Shown here: piece after piece, positions 258 through 18,255 of the stretch | Position numbering within the stretch: the stretch's first letter is position 1 | Layout of the letters: each line of letters begins with the position of its first letter | Source: a virus | Virus record (IMG/VR): IMGVR_UViG_3300030099_006714 | Coordinates: 1 to 30,442 of that record | Length of the DNA stretch: 30,442 nt | Direction: 5' to 3' (one strand) | Notes under the pieces: generated by a model | Database searches by the model: none | The model's input: the letters and a program-made list of their open reading frames with translations, nothing else | What the model was told of the DNA's origin: nothing | Position numbers and translations under genes: made by a program

Positions 258-282
258 CAACTATATAAATGGATGTTATAAT
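254..282 (+). promoter_or_regulatory. Perfect sigma70-type promoter (TTGACA-17-TATAAT)
   Basis: TTGACA occupies 254-259 and TATAAT occupies 277-282, separated by exactly 17 bases. Both hexamers match the bacterial vegetative consensus with no mismatch. The predicted transcription start is near 289, leaving a leader of about 17 nt before the ATG at 306. The -35 box overlaps the stop codon of the upstream gene. Within the spacer, TATAAAT at 264-270 also resembles a T4 late box, so early and late signals may overlap. T4-like cyanophages are known to use host-like promoters for early genes; use at this site is inferred. Confidence 0.75.
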
Positions 283-285
283 TGA

Positions 286-299
286 ATTGAAATTTCAAT
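286..299. promoter_or_regulatory. 14-bp perfect palindrome at predicted transcription start
   Basis: ATTGAAATTTCAAT at 286-299 is a perfect inverted repeat with no spacer. It begins 4 bases after the -10 box and covers the predicted start point near 289. Its position fits an operator for a dimeric repressor, or simply an AT-rich leader; no cognate regulator is visible in the window. Confidence 0.4.
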
Positions 300-305
300 A
301 AAACT

Positions 306-1291: not shown

Positions 1292-1313
1292 AAGATATAT
1301 TTGCCTAATAATA

Positions 1314-1715: not shown

Positions 1716-3862
1716 TGCCACTAGTTAATTTCTCCAATCTGGATTTTGACCAGATAAAAACAACAATAAAAGATTATCTTAGATCTAATTCCAATTTCAC
1801 TGACTATGATTTTGAAGGATCTAACTTATCGACGATCATTGATGTTCTGGCATACAATACTTACATCACTTCTTACAATGCCAACATGGTATCGAACGAA
1901 GTTTTTATTGATAGTGCAACATTAAGGGAAAATGTTGTCTCATTAGCACGTAATATTGGATATACTCCTACTTCTAAAAAGGCAGCTAAAGCAAATATAT
2001 CATTTTTTGTAGATACAACTAGTTATTCATCCACTCCTCAGACGGTTACTTTGAATAAAGGTCTTGCTTGCACTACAAATGTCTTCAATAATGAGTCTTT
2101 TACCTTTGCTTTACTTGATGATGTCACTGTTCCTGTCAAGCAAAACGTAGCTAACTTTGAAAATATTCAAATTTCTGAAGGAATTTACATTACTACTAAT
2201 TTTACAGTCAATTCTTTCGATCCAAATCAGAGATTTATCCTTCCAAACTCTAATATTGACACTGATAGCATTAGAGTAACAGTCAAACCTTCTCAATTAT
2301 CGAATACAAGTCGAAAATATAGAAAAGCTGCAAGTTTATTTGAGATAAATGGTGAATCTGCTATCTATTTTTGCCAAGAAATCGAAAATGAAAGATATGA
2401 ATTGATTTTTGGTGATGGTATTTTTGGTAAAAAGTTGGAATCTCCTAGTTTTATTGAAGTTTCCTACCTAGTAACCAATGGAGAAGCTGCAAATGGCATC
2501 GGATCCTTTATATTTTCAGGAAAATTAACGTCAAGTAGAGATTCTGTTAATTTAACTGCAGGAATTTCCTTAGTTGCGACTAATAATGTTGCTGAAGGGG
2601 GTAAAAATATAGAAACTATCGAATCTATTAAGAAATATTCGACTCGAATTTACTCCTCACAGAATAGAGCAGTAACTTCAGCTGATTATGAGGCACTTTT
2701 ACCAACAATATATCCCGAAACTGATTCTGTTTCTGCTTTTGGTGGAGAAGAGTTAACTCCTCCTCAATTTGGAAAGGTTTTTGTAAGTGTAAAACCTACA
2801 AATGGAGCATATTTGTCTGGACAGATCAAAGAAAACATAAAAAGTCAAATTAAGAAGTATTCTGTATCAGGAATTGTTGTTGATATCATTGATTTGAAAT
2901 ATTTGTACATCGAACCTAACATTACAGCTTATTTTAATCCAAATTTAGCAAAATCTGCTAATTCAATCACTACAATTGTAAGTAGTAATGTAGAAACTTT
3001 CTCTAAATCTGCTGAAATTAACAGATTTGGAGCAAGATTCAAATATAGTAAATTTTTGAATTTAATTGATGGTAGTAGTGAAGGTATAACTTCTAATATT
3101 ACGACTATTAGTATAAGAAGGGATTTGAGAGTAGCGTTAAATAGTTTTGCGGAATACGAAATTTGTTACGGTAACAGATTTTTTGTACAAGATGGTGGAT
3201 ATAATATTAAGTCTTCTGGATTTAATATTGCTGGTCTAAGTGCAACTGTATATCTTAGTGATATGCCTGATGCTACTCATGAAAAAGGAACTATTGACTT
3301 ATTTGTCTTAGATTCTGAAACTCAACCTAAAATTGTTAAAAAATCTGTAGGGGTCATTGATTATATTAAAGGAGAGATTAAATTAACTCCAATTAATATT
3401 ACCAACACTGTTATTAACAAGGGATTCCCCCTAATTGAAATTTCTGCTATTCCATACTCTAATGATGTAATAGGACTTCAAGATTTGTACTTACAAATAG
3501 ATCTAAATCAAACAGAGGTTACTTCAAAACCTGATAATATTTCCTCTGGAGTAGATGTATCAGGAAGTAACTATCTTGTTACTTCAAGTTATGTAAATGG
3601 AAGTCTAGTTCGTGGTGGCCCTATATTTGCAACTGAGTCACTCACCACAACCACTGTATCGAACCGTGTAGGCAGCGAAACTATGACTTCTACTACAACA
3701 TCCACAACATCCACAACATCGTCCTCTGGTTCCGCTTCTGGCGGTTCTACAGGTGGTTCTACTGGTGGTAGCACTGGCGGTGGTGGTATGGGTGGTGGAG
3801 GCAGCACTGGCGGTGGTGGTGGCACTGGCGGTGGCGGCGGCGGTTACGGCGGCGGTTATTAA
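1715..3862 (+). CDS. 6: gp6-like baseplate wedge subunit with Gly-rich tail
   Basis: The product is 715 residues; T4 gp6 is about 660. gp6 forms the inner iris of the baseplate wedge and belongs to the Baseplate_J-type family. YDFEGSNLSTIIDVLAYNTY at residues 31-50 closely matches the T4 N-terminus (DYDFEGSRLNVLCDLLAYNT). IFGDGIFGKK near 230 and the RAVTSADYEALLPTIYPETD stretch near 320 match the central core. From about residue 656 the chain changes to Thr/Ser repeats and then almost pure Gly with Ser/Thr and a GYGGGY end. That tail is low-complexity, GC-rich at the DNA level and not present in T4 gp6. The gene overlaps the gp25 stop by one base. Confidence 0.93.
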   Translation: MPLVNFSNLDFDQIKTTIKDYLRSNSNFTDYDFEGSNLSTIIDVLAYNTYITSYNANMVSNEVFIDSATLRENVVSLARNIGYTPTSKKAAKANISFFVDTTSYSSTPQTVTLNKGLACTTNVFNNESFTFALLDDVTVPVKQNVANFENIQISEGIYITTNFTVNSFDPNQRFILPNSNIDTDSIRVTVKPSQLSNTSRKYRKAASLFEINGESAIYFCQEIENERYELIFGDGIFGKKLESPSFIEVSYLVTNGEAANGIGSFIFSGKLTSSRDSVNLTAGISLVATNNVAEGGKNIETIESIKKYSTRIYSSQNRAVTSADYEALLPTIYPETDSVSAFGGEELTPPQFGKVFVSVKPTNGAYLSGQIKENIKSQIKKYSVSGIVVDIIDLKYLYIEPNITAYFNPNLAKSANSITTIVSSNVETFSKSAEINRFGARFKYSKFLNLIDGSSEGITSNITTISIRRDLRVALNSFAEYEICYGNRFFVQDGGYNIKSSGFNIAGLSATVYLSDMPDATHEKGTIDLFVLDSETQPKIVKKSVGVIDYIKGEIKLTPINITNTVINKGFPLIEISAIPYSNDVIGLQDLYLQIDLNQTEVTSKPDNISSGVDVSGSNYLVTSSYVNGSLVRGGPIFATESLTTTTVSNRVGSETMTSTTTSTTSTTSSSGSASGGSTGGSTGGSTGGGGMGGGGSTGGGGGTGGGGGGYGGGY
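3694..3720 (+). repeat. 9-bp tandem repeat encoding Ser/Thr tract in gp6
   Basis: A nine-base unit (ACAACATCC) repeats almost three times within the gp6 reading frame, encoding Thr-Thr-Ser units. It keeps frame, so copy changes would lengthen or shorten the linker without breaking the gene. Confidence 0.7.
3738..3859 (+). repeat. GGN/GGY-rich low-complexity tract (poly-Gly tail of gp6)
   Basis: A run dominated by GGT and GGC codons with interspersed Ser/Thr codons encodes the last 40 or so residues of gp6. It is far richer in G than the surrounding AT-rich DNA. Its complement reads as a proline-rich frame, which is an artefact. Confidence 0.85.
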
Positions 3863-3898
3863 CTCTCATATTCTTACTAAGATCAACATATACAAAAA

Positions 3899-6800
3899 AT
3901 GATATCTACAGACATACAAAGAGTTCAACTGCAAAGTATAGTTGCAAATCAACTCCCTTCTTTTGTAAAGGATGACTTTCCTTTAATAGCTGACTTTTTA
4001 AAAGAATATTATATTTCTCAAGAATTTCCAGGAGCATCTGCTGATTTAATACAGAATATTGATGAGTATTTGAAATTAGAGTCGTTAACTAATAATGCAC
4101 AAGAAACTGAGTTGGGAGCAGATATTTCGTACAATGATACTACTATTACAGTAGCATTTGATTTATCTAAAGAAGTTTTTGGTACATATCAATTCCCTGA
4201 TAGAGATGGATTGATTCAAATTGGTGATGAAATTATTTTATATTCAGAAAAAACTAAAACTTCGTTTACAGGATGTAGAAGAGGATTTAGTGGAGTAACT
4301 TCTTATCAAGCTTTAAATGATACTGATCGCTTAACTTTTTCAACTTCCAGCACTGCGAAACATAAGGGTGGAGATAAAATTGTTAATTTAAGTGCATTAC
4401 TTTTTAATGAATTTTTACTTAAGATAAAAAATCAATTAAGTCCTGGTTTTGAGAATAGAACTTTAGCTGATGATTTAAATCAAAGACTGTTTATATCAAG
4501 ATCTAAAGATTTTTATCAAGCTAAAGGAACAGATGAATCCTTTAGTATGCTTTTTGGTGCTTTGTATGGAGAATCTGTAGAAGTATTAAAACCTCAAGAT
4601 TTTACTTTTAGACCATCTGATGCTGATTATAGAGTTACAAAGGATTTAGTTGTTCAAGCAATAGATGGAGATCCCTCTCAATTATTGAATAGCACGTTAT
4701 TTCAAGATGCTTATACTGACTATAATATAAATCCAGCGTATTCACCTATCTCTGCAATTGAAAAAATAACTTTTAATAGTAAGGATTATTATAAGTTAAG
4801 TCTTGATTTTAACTATGCTAAAGATATTCCTCTACAGGGAAGTATTTTTGGAGAGTTCAGTGTTCACCCTAATACCAAAGTCATAACTCCTGTAAGCATT
4901 GGTGCTAGTGTAATTGATGTAGATTCTACAATAGGATTCCCTAATTCAGGTGAATTGGCAGTTGAATCAGGAATATTAACTTACCGATCAAAATCATTAA
5001 ACCAGTTCTATGGTGTAGGAGTAGCAAATACTACAGATATTGGTACTACATCTATTATTGAGTCAAAAGAGGATATAAGATTAAATGTTGAAGCTTATGG
5101 TTACATTGGTGTTGGAACTGCGAATAAAGTAACTGTTAAAGTAGGATCAGTTTTAGCAGAACCAATAATTCAAACTGATACTTATTATTATTCTATTAAT
5201 GATACTGCAAAAGTACAATCTTTAGGAATTACAACTTCAGGACCAAATGTTGATAATTGGTTTTATAATGTAGCTACAAGTTATGATGTAAAATCAATAG
5301 TTTTGGTTGATTCATCAGATTTTACATACACTATAGAAACTTTTACTGAAAATAATTTTCAATTAGGAGATGCAGTTACAGTTATAGACACAGCTGGTAA
5401 CAATAAGGATTCGCTTGTAAATGAAGTTATAAATCCTTTTAAATTCTCCATTAGAGGACAAGGATCTCTCTCTTCTATTAAAAGTGTACAAAGAAATATA
5501 ACCAGAGCAAAGGTTGATGTAGCTTTAAAGGATTATTACTATATTGATAATTATTTTGCTAATATTCAAAATACCTATGTGGATTTTGATGGAAGTGTTT
5601 TAGTTGCTTCTCCATCCATTCCTCATTATTTTAATGGACCTTTAGATTTTTATGATAGAAAAGTTATATTAAGTGGATCTTACAACGGAGATACTTTTAC
5701 AGTTTTAGATGTAAATGATCATGGATATTATACAGGAGATGCAGTTTACTATAATTCTTTTGATATAATTTCAGAAGATTTCTTAGGTAATGAGAGTATA
5801 AGTGTTAGTAAGTTTCCTGAAATAAATCCAGGAATTTTCTTTGTAAAAAGAGTAAATAAAAATCAATTTCAACTTGCTACAAGTCCAAGTAATATTAATA
5901 ATAATAATTTTGTATCTGTTTCGGGTATTGTAACTTCTAATACCATACAGCCTCTTAGTTATTTTGATAAGATAGTTGATAATCAATTACTTTTAAAACA
6001 AATAAATGAACCAAGTGACGAAAGTGGTACTTATATCACTGAACCTGGTAGTAGAACAGGTATTTTGATAAATGGTGTTGAGATTCTTAATTACAAATCC
6101 ACAGATACAGTTTATTATGGGCCACTTAATAAAATAGACATAAGTGCAGAGGGAAAAGACTATGATATTTTAAATCCTCCACTTATACACATTGAAGATA
6201 CCGTTGGTAGTGGTGCAACTGCCATTGCAGCTATTAGAGGAAATTTAAATTCTATTGATATCGTAGATCCTGGTTTTGATTATGTTTCAGATCCTATTAT
6301 TACGATCACAGGTGGAAATGGTGTTGGTGCTGAAGCTTTTGCTAATACTATTCTTGCAACTCATGATGTTTCATTCAATGCTTTTGGTGTAAAAGAGTCA
6401 GAATCTGCTCGTATCAACTTAGAGGCTGATACTATCGGTTTTTCTACTTTTCATAAGTTTAGAAATGGTGAAAAAGTAATTTATAAACCAGATGGAGGAA
6501 CATTAGTTGGTGGAATCACTACTGACGCTGTTTACTATGTTCATACTGTTGGAGTGTCCACAGTAAAACTTTATGAAACTCAGGATCAAGCAATTTCCGC
6601 AGGAATTGAAACAGTTTCTTTAACTTCTTTTGGAACAGGAATACAAAGATTACAATCTTTTGATAAAAAGAAAATTTTATCTAATATTATCATTAAAAAT
6701 TCAGGTATAGGTTATGAAAACAAAAAAAGAACGATTATTTCAGCAACAGGAATAAACACGGCTCTTAATCAGATAAACATAGATGATCATGGATATAAAT

Positions 6801-9800
6801 CTGGAGAAATTATAGAATATTCATATGATAAAGATAGAATAAGTGGTATTAACTCAAATACTCAATATTTGGTTACTGAAGTAGATGCTAATAACTTTAA
6901 ATTATCTAGTGTTGGAGTTGGAACAACTGCTAAGTCTTTCTATTTTGATAATAATGAATATATTGATTTTTCTGTTGCAGGCTTAGGTACAGGAACTCAT
7001 TCTTTTAACTATGAACCAATTGTAGTTGATTTAAGTGGTGAGATTGGAGTCACTACTGCTAGTGGACAAGATTTTAGAGCTAAAATTCAACCTTTGTTTA
7101 GAGGATTCATTGATTCAGTTCAAGTTATAAATTCTGGTGCAGATTATGGTTCTTCTGAAATTCTTAATTATGATAGGCAACCTCTTATTACAACTAAAAC
7201 AGGTACAGGAGCTCAAGTTACCCCAGTTATTAATAATGGAAAACTTGTTGATGTTTTAGTTGTAAATGAAGGTTTTGGATATAACTCTCCTCCATCATTA
7301 GAATTAGAAACAGATGGGGCTGGAAAATATGCTGAACTAGTACCCGTTTTAGAAAATGGACAACTTAAGAGTGTAAGAATCCATAATGCAGGTATTGGTT
7401 ATACTAATAGAGTAATAGTAAATGTAATTCCAAGTGGATCCCGTGCTAAATTTAAAGCAAATATTCAAAATTGGACAGTTAATTTATTTGAAAAATCTTT
7501 GGATATCATTTCTAGTGATGATGGTATTTTAGATGCTGCAGAAAATACAGATTTAGGTATTCAATATACTCATTTATATGCACCTAGAAAATTAAGAGAA
7601 TCTGTATATGTCAGAAATCAAAATAATGATATTAAATATGGACTTCTTGATTTAGAGAGAGTTGATGGACAAGAAGTATCTGCTTCATTCCATTCTCCTA
7701 TAATAGGATGGGCTTATGACGGAAATCCCATTTATGGTCCTTATGGGTACACTACTCCCACTGGAGGAGCAGTAAGAGCTATGGAGTCTGGTTATAAACC
7801 AGTAACTAGTGATACTAGACCTCCTTTATCTGTTTTCCATCAAGGATTTTTTGTTGAAGATTTTGTATTTGATAATTCTGGAGATTTGGATGAGTATAAT
7901 GGACGTTTCTGTGTAACACCAGATTATCCAAATGGAGTATATGCATATTTTGCGACTATCAATTCTGGTAGTGTTGAAAGTTCAGGTGCATTTAATAAGT
8001 ATAAGATTCCAAAATTCCCTTATTTGATTGGTAATGCTTTCCATTCAAAACCAAATTCTTTTAACTATGATAAGTCTAATAATCAAACAGACTATGATTT
8101 TAATTCAGCAAAATGTTTTAGAAATACGACTCCCTATGCCTTAACAAAAAATAATGCATCTTATGATTTTTTAGTTCAACCAAATAAAAAAGCAACTCCT
8201 ATTGTTGATGTTGTTTTATCATCTTCAGGTCAAATTGATAATGTAGGAATTCTGACTGGAGGAAACAATTATCAAGTAGGTGAAAAAATTCTTTTTGAAT
8301 CTTTACCTGGTTCTCAAACTGCTAAGGCTAAAATTAAAGAAGTAGAAGGAAAAGAAGTTACTAATATTAGTGTAGCAACTAGTTCAATAACAAATTTAGA
8401 AATAGCTCCTTATGATTCAAATGGAACTTTTGTTGCTATTTCTACATTACCCCATAATTTTGTAAATAAAAATTTAGTTTCACTATCAGGATTTAATACT
8501 TCTATCAGTTCTCTTGAGGGAAGTTTTAATATTGGTGTAAGAACTGAGACATTAAATTTAACTGGAGGAGTTAGCACTACAGGTGTTACTGGGTTGGTAA
8601 CATATTTTGGAGTATCTGGATCATTAAATAGTGACTTATTATCGATTGGTGTTAATGATACTCTTGGAATAGGAACAGAAGATGTAAAAGTTCTTGCAGT
8701 TGATAAAAAAAATCAGAGATTAAGAGTTATTAGAGCTCAAAATAATACCGTATCTATTGCTCATACTGCTACATCTGTGATAACTGAGGATTCTAGAAAA
8801 TTCACATATCTATCGTCTCCTCAAAATAGTGTAGTTTTTGAATTAAATAAGGAAATTTATTTTGAACCTAAGGAGGCTTTAGGAATTGGAACTCTGACTG
8901 GTGTGGGTATTGGAACTACTATTTCATTCTCAAATCCAGGTGCGGGTTTAACTCAGATTTTTGTTCAAACTCAATCTATTTTCTTACCTGATCATGAATT
9001 AAATACTGGTGATGTTTTAACTTATAAGAACAATGGAGGCGATTCCATAGGTGTATCAACTGATGGAACCACGGAATTTACTTTACCTAATAATTCAACT
9101 CTTTATGTTGGTAAGATTTCAAATGATCTTATAGGAATTTCAACTTTTAAAGTAGGTGTAGGCACAACTGGTACTTTTGTAGGAGTTGCAGCGACAACTG
9201 AAACTAGAGGATTACTAAGATTAACTGGATTTGGCACAGGTGTTCATCATAGTTTTGAAACTAGTAAAGATAATGTAGTTACTGCTGAAGTAACTAAGAA
9301 TGTGGTTACGGTGGCAACTGCGTCAACTCATGCATTACTCTTTGATGACACTGTAACCGTAGATGTTAAACCAGGAATAATAACTTCAGTTACTGTAAAA
9401 TATAACGATTTCAATAGAAGAATAGTTTTTGATCCTAAAGATTTTGCCTCAGGGGATGTTGATGTAACAAACAACACTATTAGTATTAGTGATCATCAGT
9501 TAAACAGTGGAGACAAGGTAATTTACACTGCATCAACAGCTGCTGGTGGACTTGAAAATAATAAAATTTACTATATCTTTAGACAATCCACAAATAAAGT
9601 AAAACTTTGTTTAACTAGACATCAATCTCTACAATTTACTCCTGAGGTTGTTGATATAACTTCTGCGAGTGCTGGAACTTTATCACCAATCAACCCTTCT
9701 TTAAATGTTTATAATAACAATACTGTAAACTTTAATCTTTCAGATTCTTCTTTAGGAGATAAGATAGGAGTTAGTTCTGTAGCTGCTTTTGATTTTAATT

Positions 9801-12800
9801 TATATTCTGATAGAAATTGCACTCAAGTATTTAAATCTACAACTCTAGATGATAAATTTGAAGTAATTAAAACAGGAACAGTTGGAGTTTCTACTGATGC
9901 TGAGTTAGCTTTAAGAGTATCTGATGGTCTCCCTTCAATTTTATATTATAAATTTGTTCCAGTTGGAGGCAATGATCTTTCAGAAAATAAAAAGGGTATT
10001 GTTATTGATAAAGAAGTTGATAATTATAATGAAATAAATGTGCGACAAAGTGTATTTGCAGGACAATTTGCTGTAACTGGAATTGGCACTACAACTACAT
10101 TTGATTATAATGTAATTGATACTCCTGAAAGATCCTCCTATAGTGCATCAGATGCAAAGATTAAATATTCCACTGATTCTACAAGGGCATATGGAGGGAT
10201 TGCTAAAGTTGAATTAACCTATAAAGGAAATAATTATACAGAGATTGTTGGTGTATCTTCCATTAAGAGTGGTATAGGAACTAAGGCAGTCTTAGAACCA
10301 TCCAGTACATCTATTGGTAAAATAATTTCAACTAATATAGAGGATATTGGATTTGATTATCCTAGTGATAATACTTTAAGACCTGTTTTAAATTTACCTG
10401 AAGTTCTTCAAATAGAATCATTAACTTCATTTGAATCTATTGGAATTAGCTCTGTAGGTAAAAATTATACGATTGCACCAAATCTAGTTGTTATTGATGG
10501 ATTTACTGGAGCACAGGTTAAAGATGTTGATATAGAATATGAAATTGGAGATTCTACAGTAACTATTCTAAAGAATACATTTGGAATGAATCCTGTAACT
10601 CCAACCATAATTCCAACTGCTAATGTTAATGGTATTGGTATTAATACCATCAGTTATAATATGTCTACCAAGGAGGTAACTGTAGCTATTAATACTAGTT
10701 TCAGTAGTGCCAGTGATATACCTTTATTTGTTGGAGATAAGGTTTTAATTGAAAACATAAGTGTAGGACTTGGAACAACAGGAACTGGTTATAACTCTTT
10801 GAATTATGGATATTCATTATTTGAATTAACAAAAACTCATTTTCCATTAGGAGGAAATGTTGGAGTTGTTACTTATAGTTTAGATGGATATATTGAAGAT
10901 AATATTTTTCCAGGAAACTTTGATGCTCTTAATTCAGCAGGTATAATTGTTCCTGAAAAATATTTCCCTCAATTTGATATTGCCTTAAAAACTAATAATT
11001 TCTTAACTGGTGAAAAAGTTACTTCAGGTAATATTGTAGGTAATGTTGAAAATTGGAATAATAAAATTGAGTTATTAAAAGTATCCACAGATTCTGAATT
11101 TAATATAGGAGATATTATAGTTGGTGAAACTTCACGCACTCAAGGAAAGGTTACTTCTAAAATTAATTTTGATGCTGAAATTCAATTACAAGCTGGATCA
11201 GTAGTTAAAAAAGGATGGTCAAGAGACACTGGATTCTTTAACAATAATTTAGAAAGACTTCCTGATAATAATTACTATCAGAATTTCTCTTATTCTTTAA
11301 AATCAAAAGTTAATTACAACACATGGGAGGAATCTGTTCATAATCTTAATCATCCTACTGGATTCTTAAAGTTTAGTGATTTGCAAGTGGTATCTACAGA
11401 CGACACTTCATCAAGTGTCTCTGCAGATGAAGCTGATCTCTTTGTCTTCATAGATTCTGAGCGTGTAATGGATATAAATTGTTATTCTGCATTTGATTTG
11501 GTCACAGAAAATTCTTTAAGTGTTAGTGATACTCAAACTGTTTCAGATGAAATATTTTTCAATTCTAGAGTTTTAACTGATTACTTTGAATCAGTTGGTA
11601 ATAGAGCTTTAGTCATTGATGATTTTAGTTCTGAGTTTAATAGTGATCCTAGAGGAACTAAGTTTTCTACTGTAGATACTTTTGATCTTGATCAAAAATC
11701 CGTTAAATATGTTACCTTAGTAAAAGATGCTACATTTACAGGAGAGAGACAAGTTCTTATGGTCTCTATTCTTAATGACGGAACTCAAATATATGTCAAT
11801 AATTATGGTAAAGAAGGAACTGTAAGTGATCTAGGATTCTTTGATGCAAATATAAGTGGTACGGAAGGTGAATTACAATTCTTCCCAACTAAATTTGCAA
11901 ATAATAATTACAACGTAAGTGCTATAAGTTTTGGTGTATTGGGAATCGGCACTGCAGGTATTGGATCTACGACTCTAGGAAGTAGTGTTGATATTAGATC
12001 TAGTACAGCAAGTGTTCCTGCTAATACCACTACAACTGTTGTCGGAATAGCATCCACTTATAGAAGCTCTAAACTTATTGTTCAAATAAGTGGTGATGAT
12101 GGTAATTTTGAATATGATGAGTTAAATGTTATTCATAATGGAACCACTGTGGATCTAATGGAATATGCACAACTTACCACCCACTCTGTTGATGAGTATG
12201 GTGCTGAAGTTGGATTGGGAACCTATGCAGCTGATATGAGTGATGGTGACATTAACATAGACTTTATTCCTACTGCTGGAATAGCATGTACCGTTAATAC
12301 TTTAAGAATATCGATAGCAAGCACTTTATCAACAGGAGTTGGAACTCAATTCTTAGGAGCAGGTGATGAGGATCTTGGATTTATTGATTCATCTTATACT
12401 CACATAGCATCATCAGGATCTCCTTTAGCACATAAAATTGCTGAGTATGGTATTAATAATACTTCTGAGGTAGATGATAATAATGCTGCTTATTACGTAA
12501 TTAGTGTTGAAGATACTGCTAACGAAGAATATGAAATGATAGAGGTGATTGTAGTTAACGATAGTTCAGAGGCTTATATTACTGAATATGGAAATGTAAC
12601 TACTAATGAAGGAGCAGTATATTCTGGATTAGGTACAGTTGGTGCTGCTGTTTCTACCACAACTTCACATACTCAACTATTCTATACTCCAAATGCAGGA
12701 ATTGGTGTTTCTGTACGTGTTTTCCAAACTGCTCTTCAAATCGCAGCAGAAAATTCTGATATTGATTCTGTTGATAGTATTGATTTAGGCACAGCTGAGA

Positions 12801-15800
12801 TTAATGCTGGATTTGGTCTTTATGAAGGAACTGAGATAGATGTGAAACGTGAATTTAATTTACAACATAATCAAAAAAATATTTTCTCTCGAACTTTTGA
12901 TGCAAGTGATACCACTATCGTTAACGTAACGGATAATACGGTTACCATTCCAGATCACTTCTTTGTGACTGGAGAAGAAATTACTTATGCTCAAGGTGGA
13001 ACTCCTATTAGTATTGCATCAACAACTATTTCAGGAATTGGAGTTACTACCCTTCTTCCTCCTAATCTCTTCCTTGTTAAGGTTGATAATCAGACAGTTA
13101 AGTTTGCTAAGACTGCATCAGATGCTTTAAAAGAGATTCCAAATATATTAGAATTTAGTGCTGTAGGTGTAGGTGCAGCTCACACTATATTTGCAAGAAA
13201 TCAAAATACTAAATGTTTAATTGCTATTGATAATGCGATACAATCACCTTTAGTGTCAACTGCTGTTACCACAGGGATTACAAGTGAAATTGGTATTGCC
13301 CAAAGAGTTGTAAAGGTCTCAGGGATAACCTCTTTCTTCGGTGGAGATTTGATTAAAATTAATGATGAAATAATGAAAATTAACACAGTGGGTCATGGAA
13401 CCACTAACGCACTGTTGGTTGAGCGTCCTTGGATGGGAACAAATTTAGGAGTGCATACAGAGAATTCTCTTGTAACTAAAGTTGATGGTGATTATCATAT
13501 TGTCAATAATAAAATTAGTTTCATCGCTGCTCCTCAAGGCCCTGTTCCCATAGGTAGCACTACCAATGCTCCTGATGACAGATATTGGGTAGGTATTACG
13601 ACTCACTCCACGTTCCAAGGAAGATCGTTCATGAGATCTGGAATTGAAGATAGTAGTAAGAGAACTTATGAAACTAATTATCTATTTGATGATATCTCAC
13701 ATGAATTTAATGGTATCAGCACTGCATATACGTTAAAAGTTAATGGAGAGAATGTAGCAGGATTCTCAACTGATAATGGTGTTGTTTTAATTAATGGTGT
13801 ATTCCAAGGACCAACAGGAGAGTTACTACAAAGTCAAGATTATTCTTTTGTAGAAGGAAACACTGGAATTAGTAGTGTAGTCTTTGCTGGAGTTGCAGCT
13901 TCTGTTGCTAGTGATCCTCAAAGTGGATCTATCCCTGTTGGTGGAATGATTATCTCTGTAGGTTCTACTGAAGGTCTGGGATATCAACCTCTTGTTGCTG
14001 CTGGAGGAACTGCTGTTATTTCTGCTGCTGGTACTGTAAGTTCTATCAGTATTGGTAACTCAGGTTCAGGTTACAGAGTAGGAGTTCAAACAACTGTAAA
14101 TGTTGCTATTCAAACAGGTACGAATGTTACACCACTCTTAATTGGTATTGGCACTGCTGCAATTACTAATGGACATATTACAGGAATAGCAATTACAAAT
14201 AATCAAGTAATTTACGTTCCTCGCTCAATTTCTGATGTTGGATACAGTTCTATAACTGGAGTTACAACAGTCACTACATCGACCTCACATGGTCTTCTAG
14301 TAGGGCAAGAAGTGAAGTTATCGGGAATTGCATTCACATGTGATTACCTCCCTGCTGTGGGCGTTCAGAGTGCCGTATACACTGCTTCTACAGGTATAAT
14401 GACTGTCACTACATCTAGTGCTCATGGACTAGCTGTAAGCGGTAAAAATAGTGATGTCATCTTAACTGGATTAGCATTTACATGTGCATTAGATAATGGT
14501 GGTTCTCTTCATTTATACCCTAGAACAACTGATCCTGCATTTGGTGGGACACCAGTTATAGGAGTAGCAAGTGCAACTCAATTTACAATTAATGCGGGTA
14601 TTTCAACTGTTCCAACATTCTATGTTTCAGGTGGTACGATACAACCTGCTTTAATAGCACCTAGAACCACTAATAATTCTGCAAGTGGAACTGATCCAGC
14701 TGCTCAAGGATCTACTGTTTTGACAATTATTGATAATACTTCATTCACAATTAATTCAGGTGTGTCAACAAGAGCACACTTCTATGCGAGAGGAGGTAGA
14801 GTTGATAGGGCGATGGATGTTGTGATTGACGATCCACTCTCTTACTCTAACATGTCTTTAATTTATAGTGATGAGTCGCCTGGTGGTGCAAATGCGGGAG
14901 TCGGAACTGAAGCAACTATTAATGTAGTGGTGGGACAAGGTTCAAGTGTTATTAGTTTTGAAATAGTAAATGAGGGATATGCTTATGCCAATGATCAAGT
15001 TCTAACAGTAGCGATTGGAGGAACCATAGGTATTCCAACTGATACAACTAAAACATTTGAAGAATTCAAAATCACCGTTGAAGATATTATGTCAGACCAA
15101 TTTGCTGCTTGGCATTTTGGTAACTTGGAAGTATTAGATAAGATTGAGAGTGAATTTGATGGAGTTACCAGATCATTTACTCTTAAGAAAGATAAGGATC
15201 CTGTTACCATTAGAGCAGCAGAAGGTTCTGATATTGATGTTCAGTCTACCCTTTTAGTATTCTTGAATGATATTCTACAAGTTCCTGGTGATGGTTATAC
15301 ATTGAGTGGAGGAAGTGTGCTTACATTTGCATCAGCTCCTAGAGGGCCTCAGGTAGAGGGTTCATTCAAAGGTGATACTTGTAAGATTTTATTCTATAAG
15401 GGAACTGGTGACCAAGATGTGATATTTAATGATGTAAGAAAATCTGTAAAAACGGGAGATATGTTGACCATTCGCCATAATAAAGAATTATGTGCTAGGT
15501 CAATAGAACAAGATCCTCGACTTGTAGAAGATGTGGTAGCCACTAATATTGTGGACACCAACGCTTATGTAGGTATGGGTATCAATGGAAGTCCTGACTG
15601 TAAGAGACCAGTTACTTGGTGTAAGCAAACTGCTGACCTAGTTGTTAATGGTCAAATCATTAGTAAGAGTAGGGAGGAAGATAATGCAGCAGTTAATCCC
15701 ACTACAGTTATTATTCAATCTGTGGGTGTTGGATCTACTGTTATCTTCACTGAAAGTTTGAAACCTTTCTTTGATCCTGAGAATGAAAATCAAGGTAATG

Positions 15801-16669
15801 TAAAAACACAAAAGGTTTCCATTACATCTCAAGATAATATTGTAGGAGCTGCTGCAACTGCTGTTGTATCAATCGCTGGAACTATATCTTCAGTATCCGT
15901 AAGTTTCGGAGGAACAGGATATACTTCTGCTCCTGATGTAATTATTGGTACACCTGTTGGATTAGGAACCACTACCAGAGCATCAGCAACCGCTACTCTT
16001 ACAGGAGATGCAGTTTCATCTATTACAGTTACCTCTCCTGGTACAGGATATACAACTGAAACTCCTCCTGAAGTTCTTATTGAAGTCCCATCTTTAACTA
16101 GAGAAGTAAATACTACTGGTAGTTACGAAGGTGACTTTGGAGAGATCATCGGAGTCTCAACAACATCTGTAGGGGTTGCATCGACTGGTGTTGTATTTGA
16201 CTTCTTTATTCCACCTAATTCTGTCTTAAGAGATAGTATTATAGCAGGAACTGCTGTTACTATTAGTGGAATCCAAACTGGTTATTACTTCACTGTAAGT
16301 AATAGTAATATTGGAAGTGGATTAACATCTCTATATCAAAATAATGGAGTTTTGGGTATAGGAACTACCTTTATAGATAATGTGTATGAAGTAGCTGCAG
16401 TATCTGTAGCACAGACTTCCACACCAGGAATTGCTCTAACATATGTTGCTCAAGTAACGGTTAGTGTAGATTCTTATAATGGTTTAATTAATGCTGGTTT
16501 GGGATATAGTGAATTCTTTGGTAATTATTCATGGGGAAGAATAGATATGGGTGCTAGAAGTTCTCCAAAAGCTTTTACTGCTTATACTAGTAACGGTTTT
16601 ACAGGACTTTCTACTTCTGCTGTTATCAGTAGAGTAACTCCTCTAAGATCTAAAGATTATTCCTCTTAA
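3899..16669 (+). CDS. Giant gp7-position baseplate wedge protein, 4256 residues
   Basis: This single uninterrupted frame of 12.8 kb lies between gp6 and gp8, the position of T4 gene 7 (product about 1030 residues). gp7 joins wedge subunits in the baseplate. Two gp7-like signatures are visible. SRSKDFYQAKG at 200-210, followed by FGALYGESVEV, matches the T4 SRSYDFYSTKG region. YYQNFSYSLKSKV at 2459-2471, then a Trp and HPTGF at 2485-2489, matches the T4 region with SRSYYVMKIKS and HPVGF. Between them lie about 2250 residues of beta-rich Gly/Thr/Ser modules, including a YHYH-like domain at about 1255-1395. After them come three tandem modules (about 2603-2950), HGxxxGD modules, paired FTC modules and GxGY repeats. 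No signal peptide or membrane segment is seen. No clear Shine-Dalgarno precedes the ATG. I recognise large homologues in marine T4-like phages. The wedge role is inferred; the extra modules may be adhesive or ruler-like. Confidence 0.85.
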   Translation: MISTDIQRVQLQSIVANQLPSFVKDDFPLIADFLKEYYISQEFPGASADLIQNIDEYLKLESLTNNAQETELGADISYNDTTITVAFDLSKEVFGTYQFPDRDGLIQIGDEIILYSEKTKTSFTGCRRGFSGVTSYQALNDTDRLTFSTSSTAKHKGGDKIVNLSALLFNEFLLKIKNQLSPGFENRTLADDLNQRLFISRSKDFYQAKGTDESFSMLFGALYGESVEVLKPQDFTFRPSDADYRVTKDLVVQAIDGDPSQLLNSTLFQDAYTDYNINPAYSPISAIEKITFNSKDYYKLSLDFNYAKDIPLQGSIFGEFSVHPNTKVITPVSIGASVIDVDSTIGFPNSGELAVESGILTYRSKSLNQFYGVGVANTTDIGTTSIIESKEDIRLNVEAYGYIGVGTANKVTVKVGSVLAEPIIQTDTYYYSINDTAKVQSLGITTSGPNVDNWFYNVATSYDVKSIVLVDSSDFTYTIETFTENNFQLGDAVTVIDTAGNNKDSLVNEVINPFKFSIRGQGSLSSIKSVQRNITRAKVDVALKDYYYIDNYFANIQNTYVDFDGSVLVASPSIPHYFNGPLDFYDRKVILSGSYNGDTFTVLDVNDHGYYTGDAVYYNSFDIISEDFLGNESISVSKFPEINPGIFFVKRVNKNQFQLATSPSNINNNNFVSVSGIVTSNTIQPLSYFDKIVDNQLLLKQINEPSDESGTYITEPGSRTGILINGVEILNYKSTDTVYYGPLNKIDISAEGKDYDILNPPLIHIEDTVGSGATAIAAIRGNLNSIDIVDPGFDYVSDPIITITGGNGVGAEAFANTILATHDVSFNAFGVKESESARINLEADTIGFSTFHKFRNGEKVIYKPDGGTLVGGITTDAVYYVHTVGVSTVKLYETQDQAISAGIETVSLTSFGTGIQRLQSFDKKKILSNIIIKNSGIGYENKKRTIISATGINTALNQINIDDHGYKSGEIIEYSYDKDRISGINSNTQYLVTEVDANNFKLSSVGVGTTAKSFYFDNNEYIDFSVAGLGTGTHSFNYEPIVVDLSGEIGVTTASGQDFRAKIQPLFRGFIDSVQVINSGADYGSSEILNYDRQPLITTKTGTGAQVTPVINNGKLVDVLVVNEGFGYNSPPSLELETDGAGKYAELVPVLENGQLKSVRIHNAGIGYTNRVIVNVIPSGSRAKFKANIQNWTVNLFEKSLDIISSDDGILDAAENTDLGIQYTHLYAPRKLRESVYVRNQNNDIKYGLLDLERVDGQEVSASFHSPIIGWAYDGNPIYGPYGYTTPTGGAVRAMESGYKPVTSDTRPPLSVFHQGFFVEDFVFDNSGDLDEYNGRFCVTPDYPNGVYAYFATINSGSVESSGAFNKYKIPKFPYLIGNAFHSKPNSFNYDKSNNQTDYDFNSAKCFRNTTPYALTKNNASYDFLVQPNKKATPIVDVVLSSSGQIDNVGILTGGNNYQVGEKILFESLPGSQTAKAKIKEVEGKEVTNISVATSSITNLEIAPYDSNGTFVAISTLPHNFVNKNLVSLSGFNTSISSLEGSFNIGVRTETLNLTGGVSTTGVTGLVTYFGVSGSLNSDLLSIGVNDTLGIGTEDVKVLAVDKKNQRLRVIRAQNNTVSIAHTATSVITEDSRKFTYLSSPQNSVVFELNKEIYFEPKEALGIGTLTGVGIGTTISFSNPGAGLTQIFVQTQSIFLPDHELNTGDVLTYKNNGGDSIGVSTDGTTEFTLPNNSTLYVGKISNDLIGISTFKVGVGTTGTFVGVAATTETRGLLRLTGFGTGVHHSFETSKDNVVTAEVTKNVVTVATASTHALLFDDTVTVDVKPGIITSVTVKYNDFNRRIVFDPKDFASGDVDVTNNTISISDHQLNSGDKVIYTASTAAGGLENNKIYYIFRQSTNKVKLCLTRHQSLQFTPEVVDITSASAGTLSPINPSLNVYNNNTVNFNLSDSSLGDKIGVSSVAAFDFNLYSDRNCTQVFKSTTLDDKFEVIKTGTVGVSTDAELALRVSDGLPSILYYKFVPVGGNDLSENKKGIVIDKEVDNYNEINVRQSVFAGQFAVTGIGTTTTFDYNVIDTPERSSYSASDAKIKYSTDSTRAYGGIAKVELTYKGNNYTEIVGVSSIKSGIGTKAVLEPSSTSIGKIISTNIEDIGFDYPSDNTLRPVLNLPEVLQIESLTSFESIGISSVGKNYTIAPNLVVIDGFTGAQVKDVDIEYEIGDSTVTILKNTFGMNPVTPTIIPTANVNGIGINTISYNMSTKEVTVAINTSFSSASDIPLFVGDKVLIENISVGLGTTGTGYNSLNYGYSLFELTKTHFPLGGNVGVVTYSLDGYIEDNIFPGNFDALNSAGIIVPEKYFPQFDIALKTNNFLTGEKVTSGNIVGNVENWNNKIELLKVSTDSEFNIGDIIVGETSRTQGKVTSKINFDAEIQLQAGSVVKKGWSRDTGFFNNNLERLPDNNYYQNFSYSLKSKVNYNTWEESVHNLNHPTGFLKFSDLQVVSTDDTSSSVSADEADLFVFIDSERVMDINCYSAFDLVTENSLSVSDTQTVSDEIFFNSRVLTDYFESVGNRALVIDDFSSEFNSDPRGTKFSTVDTFDLDQKSVKYVTLVKDATFTGERQVLMVSILNDGTQIYVNNYGKEGTVSDLGFFDANISGTEGELQFFPTKFANNNYNVSAISFGVLGIGTAGIGSTTLGSSVDIRSSTASVPANTTTTVVGIASTYRSSKLIVQISGDDGNFEYDELNVIHNGTTVDLMEYAQLTTHSVDEYGAEVGLGTYAADMSDGDINIDFIPTAGIACTVNTLRISIASTLSTGVGTQFLGAGDEDLGFIDSSYTHIASSGSPLAHKIAEYGINNTSEVDDNNAAYYVISVEDTANEEYEMIEVIVVNDSSEAYITEYGNVTTNEGAVYSGLGTVGAAVSTTTSHTQLFYTPNAGIGVSVRVFQTALQIAAENSDIDSVDSIDLGTAEINAGFGLYEGTEIDVKREFNLQHNQKNIFSRTFDASDTTIVNVTDNTVTIPDHFFVTGEEITYAQGGTPISIASTTISGIGVTTLLPPNLFLVKVDNQTVKFAKTASDALKEIPNILEFSAVGVGAAHTIFARNQNTKCLIAIDNAIQSPLVSTAVTTGITSEIGIAQRVVKVSGITSFFGGDLIKINDEIMKINTVGHGTTNALLVERPWMGTNLGVHTENSLVTKVDGDYHIVNNKISFIAAPQGPVPIGSTTNAPDDRYWVGITTHSTFQGRSFMRSGIEDSSKRTYETNYLFDDISHEFNGISTAYTLKVNGENVAGFSTDNGVVLINGVFQGPTGELLQSQDYSFVEGNTGISSVVFAGVAASVASDPQSGSIPVGGMIISVGSTEGLGYQPLVAAGGTAVISAAGTVSSISIGNSGSGYRVGVQTTVNVAIQTGTNVTPLLIGIGTAAITNGHITGIAITNNQVIYVPRSISDVGYSSITGVTTVTTSTSHGLLVGQEVKLSGIAFTCDYLPAVGVQSAVYTASTGIMTVTTSSAHGLAVSGKNSDVILTGLAFTCALDNGGSLHLYPRTTDPAFGGTPVIGVASATQFTINAGISTVPTFYVSGGTIQPALIAPRTTNNSASGTDPAAQGSTVLTIIDNTSFTINSGVSTRAHFYARGGRVDRAMDVVIDDPLSYSNMSLIYSDESPGGANAGVGTEATINVVVGQGSSVISFEIVNEGYAYANDQVLTVAIGGTIGIPTDTTKTFEEFKITVEDIMSDQFAAWHFGNLEVLDKIESEFDGVTRSFTLKKDKDPVTIRAAEGSDIDVQSTLLVFLNDILQVPGDGYTLSGGSVLTFASAPRGPQVEGSFKGDTCKILFYKGTGDQDVIFNDVRKSVKTGDMLTIRHNKELCARSIEQDPRLVEDVVATNIVDTNAYVGMGINGSPDCKRPVTWCKQTADLVVNGQIISKSREEDNAAVNPTTVIIQSVGVGSTVIFTESLKPFFDPENENQGNVKTQKVSITSQDNIVGAAATAVVSIAGTISSVSVSFGGTGYTSAPDVIIGTPVGLGTTTRASATATLTGDAVSSITVTSPGTGYTTETPPEVLIEVPSLTREVNTTGSYEGDFGEIIGVSTTSVGVASTGVVFDFFIPPNSVLRDSIIAGTAVTISGIQTGYYFTVSNSNIGSGLTSLYQNNGVLGIGTTFIDNVYEVAAVSVAQTSTPGIALTYVAQVTVSVDSYNGLINAGLGYSEFFGNYSWGRIDMGARSSPKAFTAYTSNGFTGLSTSAVISRVTPLRSKDYSS
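4481..4597 (+). other. gp7-like signature, first half (within giant protein)
   Basis: This stretch encodes residues 195-233. FISRSKDFYQAKGTDESF then MLFGALYGESVEV aligns by eye with the T4 gp7 segment containing SRSYDFYSTKG and FKVLYNEEVEIE. This is the main evidence that the giant protein contains a wedge core. The T4 sequence is from memory. Confidence 0.65.
6139..7460 (+). repeat. GxGYxxxPxVxI-type beta repeats in giant protein (first group)
   Basis: The encoded chain contains repeated units of a strand, then (D/N/S)-x-G-x-x-Y, then a Pro and a second strand: PGFDYVSDPIITI, SGADYGSSEIL, EGFGYNSPPSLEL and AGIGYTNRVIVNV. Linkers read GxGAxA. The spacing of about 35-45 residues suggests stacked beta units, as in fibre-like proteins. 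Related copies are found elsewhere in this gene, in gp8, in the DUF4815 protein and in gp14. Confidence 0.65.
7661..8083 (+). other. YHYH-like domain embedded in giant protein
   Basis: Residues about 1255-1395 contain GWAYDGNPIYGPYGY at 1270-1284, LDEYNGRFCVTP from 1330, VYAYFATI near 1346-1353 and FPYLIGNAF near 1373. This order matches the YHYH domain (DGFPIYGPYG, LDxCNGR, YHYHAT, FPYxIG). The namesake YHYH is Y-A-Y-F here, so both histidines are missing. The canonical Cys of the LDxCNGR motif is Tyr, while a Cys occurs three residues after the Arg. The domain may be a structural relic or a sugar-binding or metal-free variant; its function is unknown even in bacteria. Confidence 0.7.
11273..11389 (+). 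other. gp7-like signature, second half (within giant protein)
   Basis: Residues 2459-2497 read YYQNFSYSLKSKV, a Trp near 2475, HPTGF at 2485-2489, then a hydrophobic strand. T4 gp7 has SRSYYVMKIKSNLP, a Trp and HPVGF in the same order near its C-terminal third. The distance from the first gp7-like signature is about 2250 residues, against roughly a hundred or so in T4 as I recall. Confidence 0.65.
11705..12745 (+). repeat. Three tandem beta modules in giant protein
   Basis: Three successive units begin near residues 2603, 2720 and 2864. Each has a strand, then (N/D)-(D/G)-(G/T/S) with a hydrophobic strand and a Y-(G/A) turn: LNDGTQIYVNNYGK, HNGTTVDLMEYAQLT and NDSSEAYITEYGNVT. Each ends with an (F/Y)-x-P-(T/N) strand (FFPTKF, FIPTAG, FYTPNAG). 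The third copy is the most closely related to the second. This resembles duplicated jelly-roll-like modules, but the fold is inferred. Confidence 0.65.
12945..13900 (+). other. Conserved late segment of giant protein: HGxxxGD, GDEI and adhesin-like modules
   Basis: In order the protein shows PDHFFVTGEEITY near 12951 (a further HGxxxGD module) and INDEIMKINTVG near 13356 followed by RPWMGTN. Next come APQGP and DDRYWVGITTHSTFQGRSFM near 13550-13630. Last is an EFNGISTAYTL strand near 13705 leading to INGVFQGP near 13791. A second EF(N/D)G module recurs at about 15152-15390 (EFDGVTRSFTL, then LLVFLNDILQVPG). I recognise this order as typical of marine T4-like phage structural proteins. Function unknown; surface attachment is possible. 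Confidence 0.5.
14262..14815 (+). repeat. Paired HGL/FTC modules in giant protein
   Basis: Two adjacent units read TSTSHGLLVGQEVKLSGIAF then TC, and TSSAHGLAVSGKNSDVILTG then LAFTC. The second continues to YPRTTDPA. Downstream, two further look-alike stretches read FTINAGISTVPTFYVSGGTI and FTINSGVSTRAHFYARGGR. Two nested duplications are therefore visible in about 550 bases. Confidence 0.6.
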
Positions 16670-16701: not shown

Positions 16702-18255
16702 ATGGCTGCAATTATAACTGATCAACTGCGTATATTAAATACCAAGGATTTTGTAGCGAGCGTAGCCTCCACAACAAATTCTTATTATACTTGGATTGGT
16801 TTACCTAACCCGACCCAAGTAGATTCTGATTGGAATGTGACTCCCCCTGATCCTCAAGACAGTTTTAATCAGGAGAATGATTATTGGGATACAATGATTG
16901 CTTTGAAAAAAATAAGCACATCAGATGTAAAGCAGGTAGTAAATAAGAATACTTGGACATCAGGTATTACTTATGATATGTATAGAAATGATATTACTTC
17001 GACTAATCTAGCAAAACCATCTAACGCTACAAATTTATACGATTCTAATTACTTTGTAATGAATTCTGATTACAAAGTTTATATTTGCTTACAGAATGGA
17101 ACAGATCCTGATAATCCTGATGGTAGAGCATCTTTAGATGAACCTACATTTACTGATCTAGAACCAAGAGCAGCTGGTACTAGTGGTGATGGTTATATTT
17201 GGAAATATCTTTATACAATTAAACCTGGTGATATTACTAAATTTGATTCTACAAACTTTATGCCTGTTCCTTCGGATTGGGCAACTAACTCTGTTGATGC
17301 TCCTGTAAGAGACAATGCTGCTACCAGTGGTCAACTTAAAATTGTTACTATTACAAATAGAGGAGTTGGATTAGGAACAGCAAATCAAACTTATACTAAG
17401 GTTCCCATCAAGGGAGATGGAACTGGTGCTGAAGCCACTGTTGTTGTTAACAGTAACTCAAAAGTTGAATCTGTTACCGTTTCAAAAGGTGGATCTGGAT
17501 ATAGTTTTGGAACTTTAGACTTAGATGCAGGTGGTGTTCCCGCAGGATCTACTGCTGCAGCATTTAATGTTATTATCCCACCTCAAGGTGGTCATGGATC
17601 TGATATATATCGTGAACTAGGAGCAAAAAATGCTCTTCTTTATTCAAGAATTGAAAATGATACAGAGAATCCTGATTTTATAACAGGAAATCAATTTGGA
17701 CGTATTGGTATAGTTCAGAATCCAAAATCTTTTGGTACAAGTTCAAATCTAGAATTAGATAAGGCAAGTGCCGTTTATGCAATTAAATTGACAGGAGCTG
17801 GATCTAGCACTGCTACATTTAACGCAGATGCATTTATTACTCAAACTGTTGGTTTAGGTTCTACTGCTGTCGGAAGAGTTATTTCTTATGATCAAACTAC
17901 TCAAGTTTTGAAGTATTGGCAAGATAGGACAACTGCTGGATTTAATACCAATGGTACTCAAAATACAGATCCAGAATATGGTTTTCATCTCACTAGATTT
18001 ACCTCAACCACTAATACAGGTGGGTCGTTAAATATCATTGGTGGGTCTGCTACTTTGGCAATTCAAAGTTCATTTACAGGTATATCTACTGTAATAAATA
18101 GTAAGACCTATTATCTTGGACAGTCATTCACAAAAGGAGTGGCAAATCCAGAAGTTAGAAAATATTCTGGTAATATTATTTACGTTGACAATAGACCAGC
18201 AATCACTAGGTCTACCAACCAAAAAGAAGATATCAAAGTCATTTTGCAATTCTAA
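16702..18255 (+). CDS. 8: gp8-like baseplate wedge subunit, enlarged
   Basis: The product is 517 residues; T4 gp8 is 334. gp8 is a dimeric wedge protein attached to gp10 and gp7. The conserved core is visible: YYTWIGLPNP near 28 and DYWDTMIALKKI near 60. DGYIWKYLYTIKPGD (about 160-175) matches T4 DGYVWEYLFEIPPD. GNQFGRIGIVQNP from 330 matches GNKGFRQISIITNP. The C-terminus YVDNRPAITRSTNQKEDIKV then ILQF matches T4 YMENRPPI and its ending. Extra length comes from two insertions, about residues 215-300 (including GGSGYSFGTLDLDAGG) and about 345-480. The start ATG follows a late-type box. The next gene begins 7 nt after the stop. Confidence 0.9.
   Translation: MAAIITDQLRILNTKDFVASVASTTNSYYTWIGLPNPTQVDSDWNVTPPDPQDSFNQENDYWDTMIALKKISTSDVKQVVNKNTWTSGITYDMYRNDITSTNLAKPSNATNLYDSNYFVMNSDYKVYICLQNGTDPDNPDGRASLDEPTFTDLEPRAAGTSGDGYIWKYLYTIKPGDITKFDSTNFMPVPSDWATNSVDAPVRDNAATSGQLKIVTITNRGVGLGTANQTYTKVPIKGDGTGAEATVVVNSNSKVESVTVSKGGSGYSFGTLDLDAGGVPAGSTAAAFNVIIPPQGGHGSDIYRELGAKNALLYSRIENDTENPDFITGNQFGRIGIVQNPKSFGTSSNLELDKASAVYAIKLTGAGSSTATFNADAFITQTVGLGSTAVGRVISYDQTTQVLKYWQDRTTAGFNTNGTQNTDPEYGFHLTRFTSTTNTGGSLNIIGGSATLAIQSSFTGISTVINSKTYYLGQSFTKGVANPEVRKYSGNIIYVDNRPAITRSTNQKEDIKVILQF

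Follow-up and report, generated by a model that had tools for sequence, protein, structure and literature searches.

Does an open reading frame (ORF) of 4256 codons, lying where a gp7 gene would be expected, encode that baseplate wedge protein, and if so, what has been added to it? The ORF (3899-16669, plus strand, ATG start) belongs to an ocean phage fragment, IMG/VR virus record IMGVR_UViG_3300030099_006714, the entire 30,442 bases of which make up the stretch analysed here (the window; G+C 28-40% per kilobase). An original prediction, made from the letters alone, had placed it between gp6 and gp8, a position characteristic of the gp7 wedge family, and this is borne out by matches of its neighbours to phrog_219, phrog_438, and PF09215 (Table 1). 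The same gp6-gp7-gp8 placement is found in S-SM2, P-SSM2, Bellamy, and HTVC008M. By sequence and fold comparison, the gp7 core (N-terminal helices, domain V, and two signature segments termed M1 and M2) is kept, but a run of small beta modules in tandem, ~2060 residues in all, splits domain V, and a further ~1740 residues follow M2. That the ORF is gp7 with an insertion in domain V is, in our estimate, nearly certain. For the explanation as a whole, i.e. a gp7 that is the wedge partner of the gp6 dimer and carries peripheral arms, we would put the probability at about 0.72.

Signatures M1 and M2 and their counterparts in T4

The window gp7 contains SRSKDFYQAKG at residues 200-210, YYQNFSYSLKSKV at 2459-2471, and HPTGF at 2485-2489, just where they had originally been reported, and these match, in order, SRSYDFYSTKG (729-739) and YYVMKIKS...HPVGF (861-888, with HPVGF at 884-888) of the 1032-residue T4 gp7 taken from NC_000866 (L001 in our set). 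The final G of the first of these motifs and the opening H of the second lie 145 residues apart in T4 and 2275 in the window, while HP.GF is followed by 144 and 1767 residues, respectively, the latter in keeping with the further ~1750 residues that had been proposed. Regular-expression searches detected M1 in only 2 of 14 gp7s, and profiles were therefore needed. A long-family set of 41 sequences (the window, five named phages, and 35 IMG/VR ORFs) was divided into 68 sliding segments of 180 residues, each of which was compared by hhalign with a profile of eight T4-type gp7s. In this comparison, of the profile-profile kind that had been proposed as a check, the segments covering M1 (three, E 1.9e-12 to 1.5e-10) and M2 (three, E 0.0016-0.0018) were the six best of the 68, and the seventh-ranked segment, 241-420, aligned to T4 780-813, between M1 and M2, with E 0.021. 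Hidden Markov models (HMMs) of M1 and M2 were trained on the long family alone, with T4 and the short forms left out, and searched over 801 ORFs. The M1 model recovered seven of the eight T4-type gp7s (E 3e-8 to 1.8e-6; that of Morganella phage Mm5 was missed), and hence the M1 segment of the gp7 family (T4 725-758) is found in the window by both hhalign and HMM. Together, the two models recovered both segments in pf16, Desulfovibrio phage 7757, HTVC008M, and short marine forms, and neither yielded a match at E<=10 among 1602 reversed or shuffled ORFs.

Short relatives bridge the long family and T4. The gp7s of pf16 (523 amino acids, aa), Desulfovibrio phage 7757 (587 aa), HTVC008M (1016 aa), and marine contigs (L113-L191) share the N-terminal helices, M1, a domain V-type module, and M2 with the window, but have only 130-733 residues between the signatures, and those of pf16 and HTVC008M lack the YHYH domain described below. 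A profile of 46 short relatives (751-1178 aa) matched T4-type gp7 in the M1 region with E 4.4e-7 and in the M2 region with E 1.3e-5 (6.4e-6 with a narrower cut), and the top nine of its 27 segments all fell on T4 M1 or M2 (E 4e-7 to 2.6e-5). Since the window family reaches the short relatives with E 1e-9 to 1e-20 and these reach T4 with E 1.3e-5 or 6.4e-6, we consider the M2 of the gp7 family (T4 862-888) to be present in the window; judging from these profiles, its strong link to T4 is the one via the short relatives. The gp7 of the Desulfovibrio phage itself matches both T4's phrog_964 (over 644-830, E 4e-6) and the M2 of phrog_2885 (E 4.8e-20). Similarly, among the 284 positions of PF23786, those up to 230 correspond to the N-terminal helices and M1 and those from 231-235 onward to M2, so that the two signatures adjoin. 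This model scores above its cut-off in L178, pf16, HTVC008M, and the Desulfovibrio phage (four of the five short forms scanned) and below it in L025, the window, S-SM2, S-CAM1, and the piece of Syn9 scanned. Among PDB sequences, T4-type gp7s ranked first with the short-relative profile (E 1.8e-4 and 0.0031); one of these matches consists of three stretches in collinear order (-1.9, 16.9, and 6.7 bits, of which the first and last are weak by themselves) and the other of two. The N-terminal residues 1-60 of the window, common to pf16, HTVC008M, and the short marine forms, probably correspond to about 653-679 of T4, as suggested by the very weak collinear stretch of -1.9 bits to a T4-type gp7. 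The repeats in the inserts of the short forms also matched the tail sheath protein 9x3p (E 0.0098), which may have a module in common with them. A CRP-family regulator (E 0.67) was taken as a chance match, as were 3oxh (E 0.53), the one phmmer match of the whole window protein to the PDB, and the Pfam matches YobH, tRNA-synt_1, Pirin, and DUF1672.

An insertion inside domain V

To locate the added sequence, we relied upon an AlphaFold2 model of the gp7 of L178, a natural short relative of 940 aa. Its mean predicted local distance difference test score (pLDDT) is 61, with ten-residue blocks at 82-91 over residues 241-320 and at 85-92 or better over 521-600. Foldseek returned two PDB matches at E<=0.001, both of them T4-type gp7. 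With VIA, which gives the end points of an alignment and not the exact strands matched, 91 residues of the model (235..610) were placed upon T4 gp7 (764..856) at 2.3 A (Z 9.2) and 90 residues upon Klebsiella phage gp7 with a root-mean-square deviation (rmsd) of 2.1 (Z 8.9), the next, unrelated, row having Z 6.8. Domain V of T4 corresponds to PF21427 (766-861). As only ~90 aligned residues are spread across a 376-residue span of L178, T4 domain V must have its counterpart partly before and partly after the insert, and the added sequence thus lies within domain V as an insertion. HMM alignments to L178 put the two domain V halves of the window at ~241-340 and 2401-2442, which leaves roughly 341-2400 for the insertion. 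The original reading of the protein as a gp7 with a large modular insertion between its signatures therefore stands, given the HMMs, the short relatives, the repeated modules, and the domain V match of L178. The suggestion that this particular phage built the insertion does not, because the insertion and the extension are common to the long-form cyanophage relatives and are already contained in phrog_2885 (4179 positions).

Several results weigh against this assignment. The domain V fold was seen in the L178 model, whereas the halves in the window are placed by alignment alone. The M2 region of that model is unreliable (pLDDT 27-49) and hence offers no basis for judging how M1 and M2 pack, and over the whole chain Foldseek gives it low TM-scores (0.08, with rmsd above 20). 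The direct link between M2 and T4 is weak (hhalign E 0.0016, probability 17% on its own), the long-family M2 model does not reach T4 gp7 by HMMER, and the M2 segment of the window has no Pfam match at E<=10. The T4 Pfam gp7 models (helical, V, and VI) likewise give no match to the window at E<=1, and PF23786 Baseplate_wedge stays below its cut-off of 27, with 14.8 bits for the whole protein and 19.7 for residues 1-262. One could accordingly imagine an unrelated structural protein that occupies the gp7 position and bears two chance motif matches. The lack of any T4 gp7 Pfam match would agree with this, as would PMC7029224, according to which cyano- and pelagimyophages lack T4 gp7 and have VrlC in its place, and PMC3037559, where gp7 is listed under non-cyanophage core genes. 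However, the ranking of the segments, the collinear intermediates, the decoys, and the fold match all speak for gp7, and both S-SM2 and HTVC008M have VrlC as a gene of its own behind gp8, which leaves an unrelated protein very improbable. In the window as well, the protein said in the literature to replace gp7 (18262-25755, a 2497-aa phrog_358 protein annotated VrlC in S-SM2) has its gene two positions after that of gp7.

A frameshift or assembly artefact was rejected, as 41 ORFs of at least 3400 aa were collected (these were chosen by length, with broken copies uncounted). A single short relative, L082, is split across two frames. An apparently split gene in S-CAM9 was dismissed as well, the two products listed by BLAST being gp6 and one intact gp7.

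Table 1. Features of the window, with protein positions for the parts of gp7.
Feature	Residues (aa)	Window coordinates	Strand	Basis
gp25-like wedge protein		1314..1715	+	phrog_261 and phrog_43, both baseplate wedge subunit
gp6, expected wedge partner of gp7		1715..3862	+	phrog_219 E 2.2e-188; PF21379
gp7, baseplate wedge protein	1-4256	3899..16669	+	phrog_2885 end-to-end match
N-terminal helical segment (LPxFVxxDxPLxxxFLxxYY)	1-60	3899..4078	+	alignment
First, small insert (beta module)	61-165	4079..4393	+	alignment and motif positions
Signature M1 (FISRSKDFYQAKGTDESFSMLFGALYGESVEV), T4 gp7 727-758	198-229	4490..4585	+	hhalign best segment E 1.9e-12; HMMs
First part of domain V counterpart (T4 from 764)	~241-340	4619..4918	+	hhalign segment 241-420 to T4 780-813; homology with L178 235 onward; breakpoint approximate
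Large modular insertion inside domain V	~341-2400	4919..11098	+	both ends approximate
YHYH domain (PF14240) inside insertion	1261-1356	7679..7966	+	83.2 bits vs cut-off 25
Rest of domain V counterpart	~2401-2442	11099..11224	+	M2 HMM puts 2381-2509 on L178 549-675; alignment of L178 model with T4 domain V reaches residue 610
Signature M2 (YYQNFSYSLKSKV...HPTGF)	2459-2489	11273..11365	+	hhalign, HMM, short relatives; 2467-2489 align with T4 gp7 866-888
C-terminal extension	2521-4256	11459..16666	+	two insertion module types and one of its own
Main length-variable stretch	3393-3650	14075..14848	+	self-comparison and conservation
gp8		16702..18255	+	phrog_438 E 2.6e-163; PF09215 56 bits (cut-off 25)

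Size, spread, and modules of the insertion

The known counterparts of the window protein are the cyanophage gp7s of phrog_2885 ('baseplate wedge initiator'), such as those of S-SM2 (4156 aa), Bellamy (4067 aa), P-TIM68 (4307 aa), and P-SSM2 (5195 aa). The profile of this cyanophage baseplate wedge subunit family aligns from position 8 to 4177 of 4179 with residues 7-4251 of 4256 (3550.7 bits). Apart from this end-to-end match, these proteins resemble the window gp7 in their position after gp6, both signatures, a near-equal insert length, a YHYH domain, and a C-terminal extension. They differ in sequence, the N-terminal 500 aa of the window being at most 46.4% identical to those of the named phages (S-SM2), and in P-TIM68 one extra gene lies between gp7 and gp8. 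PHROG and GenBank already label such proteins baseplate wedge subunit or initiator, and GenBank names gp7 in S-SM2 and P-SSM2; a long gp7 with an insertion is ordinary among cyanophage relatives and the family is not new. Within the open-licence literature, we found no paper describing the insertion (subscription papers lay mostly outside the search). T4 gp7 (phrog_964) has M1, M2, and the gene order in common with the window and, by comparison via a short relative, domain V, but it holds only ~100 residues between the signatures, in contrast to ~2230, and it has ~640 residues ahead of the shared helices that are missing in the window. As neither this N-terminal part nor domain VI (PF21456) was matched in the window at E<=1 in Pfam and PHROG scans, the window gp7 does not belong to the T4 subfamily. 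Labels in other records vary. In HTVC008M, the protein between gp6 and gp8 (L079:33435-36485) is annotated as head closure Hc2 and is gp7 by both signatures, while the label 'baseplate wedge initiator' has been put on three later genes. S-SZBM1 has a second 'baseplate wedge initiator' of 615 aa.

Insert size was compared as the distance between V229 and Y2459, a measure that gives ~100 for T4. There were 158 ORFs with both segments, of which 93 were left after redundancy removal with a rough k-mer filter; some are cut by contig ends, and the relatives collected depend on the query used (one collection keeping 80 of 263). The spacing rises from 130 in the Desulfovibrio phage and 263 in pf16 to 399-558 in 49 ORFs and 733 in L026, and then resumes at 1817 in S-CAM1, followed by 2094 and 2100, 37 ORFs at 2184-2317 (2228 in the window), and 2739 in Syn9. 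Insert length is thus almost constant among the long forms (37/41 at 2184-2317). The empty range of 733-1817 may be partly a sampling effect; ACG-2014j, at ~1580, falls inside it. A negative spacing for L107 was due to a false M2 match, which was dropped under a stricter limit. The small insert behind the N-terminal helices also varies: it is absent in pf16, L027, L124, and L025, and it is enlarged in Syn9 (6076 aa, annotated 'putative fiber') and in S-SZBM1 (6619 aa), where it is ~510 residues longer. In the latter gp7 (L208:3249-23108, minus strand), the N-terminal profile splits at residues 111 and 623. From this enlargement and the size series, we conclude that gp7 has grown at three places, namely behind the N-terminal helices, within domain V, and at its C-terminal end.

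Profile self-comparison of the window family, in which no single pair of modules is more than weakly to moderately similar (E 1e-3 to 4e-12 in a one-sequence search), resolved three module types. The first occurs in the insertion at ~603-680, 832-912, 948-1010, 1686-1757, and 1850-1905 and beyond M2 at 3005-3075, and the second (GxGYxxPP) occurs at 738-810, 1066-1230, and 2063-2160 and beyond M2 at 3365-3440, 3666-3713, and 3975-4055, while all three copies of the third lie beyond M2 (2584-2940). A model of residues 241-1440 is beta-rich (pLDDT 76). It agrees with a library model of Bellamy gp7 (TM 0.76), the best of 114 Foldseek matches at E<=0.001 in the viral library; Foldseek gave no PDB match at this threshold, and T4 gp7 was not among the 50 VIA rows listed. 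One predicted module (4865-5089, residues 323-397) resembles one that Acinetobacter phage Mystique has in its tail-tube protein (68 residues at 1.6 A; the best VIA row, Z 9.9), and self-comparison hints at a related copy within residues 61-150 (E 2e-4). We discarded the VIA rows of the 241-1440 model (this tail-tube module as well as V-ATPase and EF-Tu barrels) as a guide to function, since these are common beta folds.

The insertion might mainly carry an enzyme, in which case its YHYH domain would open the envelope as a metal-dependent, tail-associated hydrolase. The domain is present in the gp7 frame of 8/10 records including the window (HTVC008M and pf16 are the two without it), and no other stretch of the insertion measured as a block is so well conserved (identity 0.63). 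Presumably the name denotes Y-H-Y-H residues, and the motif in the window reads YAYF. Both name-giving histidines are lost in 52 of 53 pattern-fitting ORFs, redundant loci included (YAYF in 50, YVYF in 2, and YAYH in 1), and the domain accounts for just ~100 of the 2060 inserted residues. The missing histidines speak against the hydrolase role predicted for the YHYH domain in PMC7824862, and we regard an enzyme as quite unlikely.

The gp7 ORF is preceded by the gp25-like gene and gp6 and followed by gp8, the phrog_358 gene, and later by gp13/gp14/gp15-type genes and a small terminase. The S-SM2 gene in the position of the gp25-like gene is gp25 in GenBank. The last ~50 codons of gp6 (3700-3862) encode a Gly/Ser-rich low-complexity tail past the gp6 profile match, which ends at residue 607. 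The gp14-type neck protein (27492-28886) matches profiles of gp7-type proteins over residues ~259-381, and residues 203-269 of gp8 match the neck-protein profile phrog_460; one pool of modules therefore seems common to several structural proteins.

A proposed arm on the baseplate rim

T4 gp7 is a monomer present in six copies, one of its domains is bound by gp9, and its domain A swings outward by ~45 degrees when the baseplate opens (PMC3004832). The gp7 orthologue of Vibrio phage XM1, gp17, is a protein of 242 aa whose two unresolved parts carry the spikes, of which there are twelve (PMC10457771); in the type VI system, loops of TssG hold TssK trimers (PMC6300606). Compared by these descriptions only, XM1 gp17 and TssG would work in the same mode as the window protein, with loops of a gp7 counterpart as anchors for spikes or TssK, and gp7 loops turned into chains of domains fit this pattern of loops as attachment points. 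In the mechanism we propose, the two core halves would close up into one domain and the insertion would leave the wedge as a large loop. With six gp7s per baseplate, as in T4, the rim would bear six arms measuring several hundred kDa each. The arms would do the work that is split in T4 among the ~640 N-terminal residues of gp7 and gp9, gp10, and gp11: keeping the wedges in the pre-contraction state, carrying the adhesins of the phage, and relaying the contact signal to gp6/gp7.

In an HMM survey of eight records, the gp11 family was detected in T4 only (1/8; none of the five cyanophage records) and the gp9/10 family in T4, Syn9, and P-TIM68 (3/8; missing from three of the five cyanophage records), while the gp8 control was found in all eight. 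S-SZBM1 provides evidence at the protein level: CsCl-purified particles gave 71 peptides (13.5% coverage) of a 6619-aa product by mass spectrometry, and the authors report no long tail fibre by transmission electron microscopy (PMC9146016). We matched this product, S-SZBM1_208, to the gene in NC_070839 by its length and a 691-aa neighbour, and it carries M1 and M2; others have thus shown, for a relative, that the gp7 gene product is present in the virion. The distribution of gp11 and gp9/10 and the lack of long tail fibres in S-SZBM1 are consistent with fibre replacement. The chain might also be a polyprotein that is cut after assembly to yield core and insertion as separate virion proteins. 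The sole point for this is its great length, and the 71 peptides were assigned to one product, which leaves cutting possible; we rate it as improbable, slightly more so than an enzyme. The mutated particle genes of S-TIM4 described in the accessible part of PMC6224464 are mostly fibre/baseplate genes, but the gp7 ORF is not named there and we did not use them as evidence.

Other observations count against the arms as a stand-in for these proteins and as a site of receptor binding. Syn9 and P-TIM68 retain a gp9/10-type match, and gene 9 (baseplate socket) appears in a table of shared cyanomyovirus genes in PMC2984593, so the absence of gp9/10 by HMM may reflect low sensitivity. Mean identity to the window is 0.53 in the insertion and 0.54 in the extension, as compared with 0.67, 0.58, and 0.51 for residues 1-60, 166-340, and 2401-2520 of the core, unlike what is seen in a receptor-binding tip. 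An insertion about as conserved as the core is not a hypervariable tip, which speaks against a receptor-binding role for it, and direct receptor contact by the insertion or the extension is in our view unlikely. These properties would also suit a gp7 core whose insertion is pure scaffold, an idea that overlaps with ours, in which the arms interlock into an outer ring or a second baseplate layer that never touches the host and separate adhesins, e.g. YadA-like ones, do. The near-constant insert length, its core-like conservation, and the YadA-type structural proteins of S-TIM4 and S-SZBM1 (PMC6224464 and PMC9146016) favour such a scaffold, whereas the extension varies greatly in length at 3393-3650, as a contact site might (variation concentrates at 3393-3592, and just 6 of 40 relatives align over half or more of 3401-3650), and S-SZBM1 is reported without long tail fibres. 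We give pure scaffold a substantial chance, though a little short of even. Overall, a beta-rich peripheral arm or scaffold anchored in the wedges is the probable identity of the insertion. The broadest version, in which the gp7 of Kyanoviridae grew at three sites into six giant arms and took over the baseplate rim, standing in for the T4 gp7 head, gp9/gp10/gp11, and the fibre sockets, with host contact via 3393-3650, is offered tentatively and is doubtful as a whole.

T4-like cyanophages are common in the ocean, and how they recognize and enter their hosts is poorly known. A gp7 that is present but split by an insertion corrects the comparison in PMC7029224, and its recognition extends that of PMC3037559. 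It also links nine PHROG families at the level of family profiles (phrog_2885, 4406, 701, 3465, 17744, 26741, 19630, 18802, and 38653, which share M1 or M2 with the short forms), several of them labelled 'head closure', 'head and packaging', or 'unknown'. Domain V together with its insertion is a concrete target for structural or deletion work.

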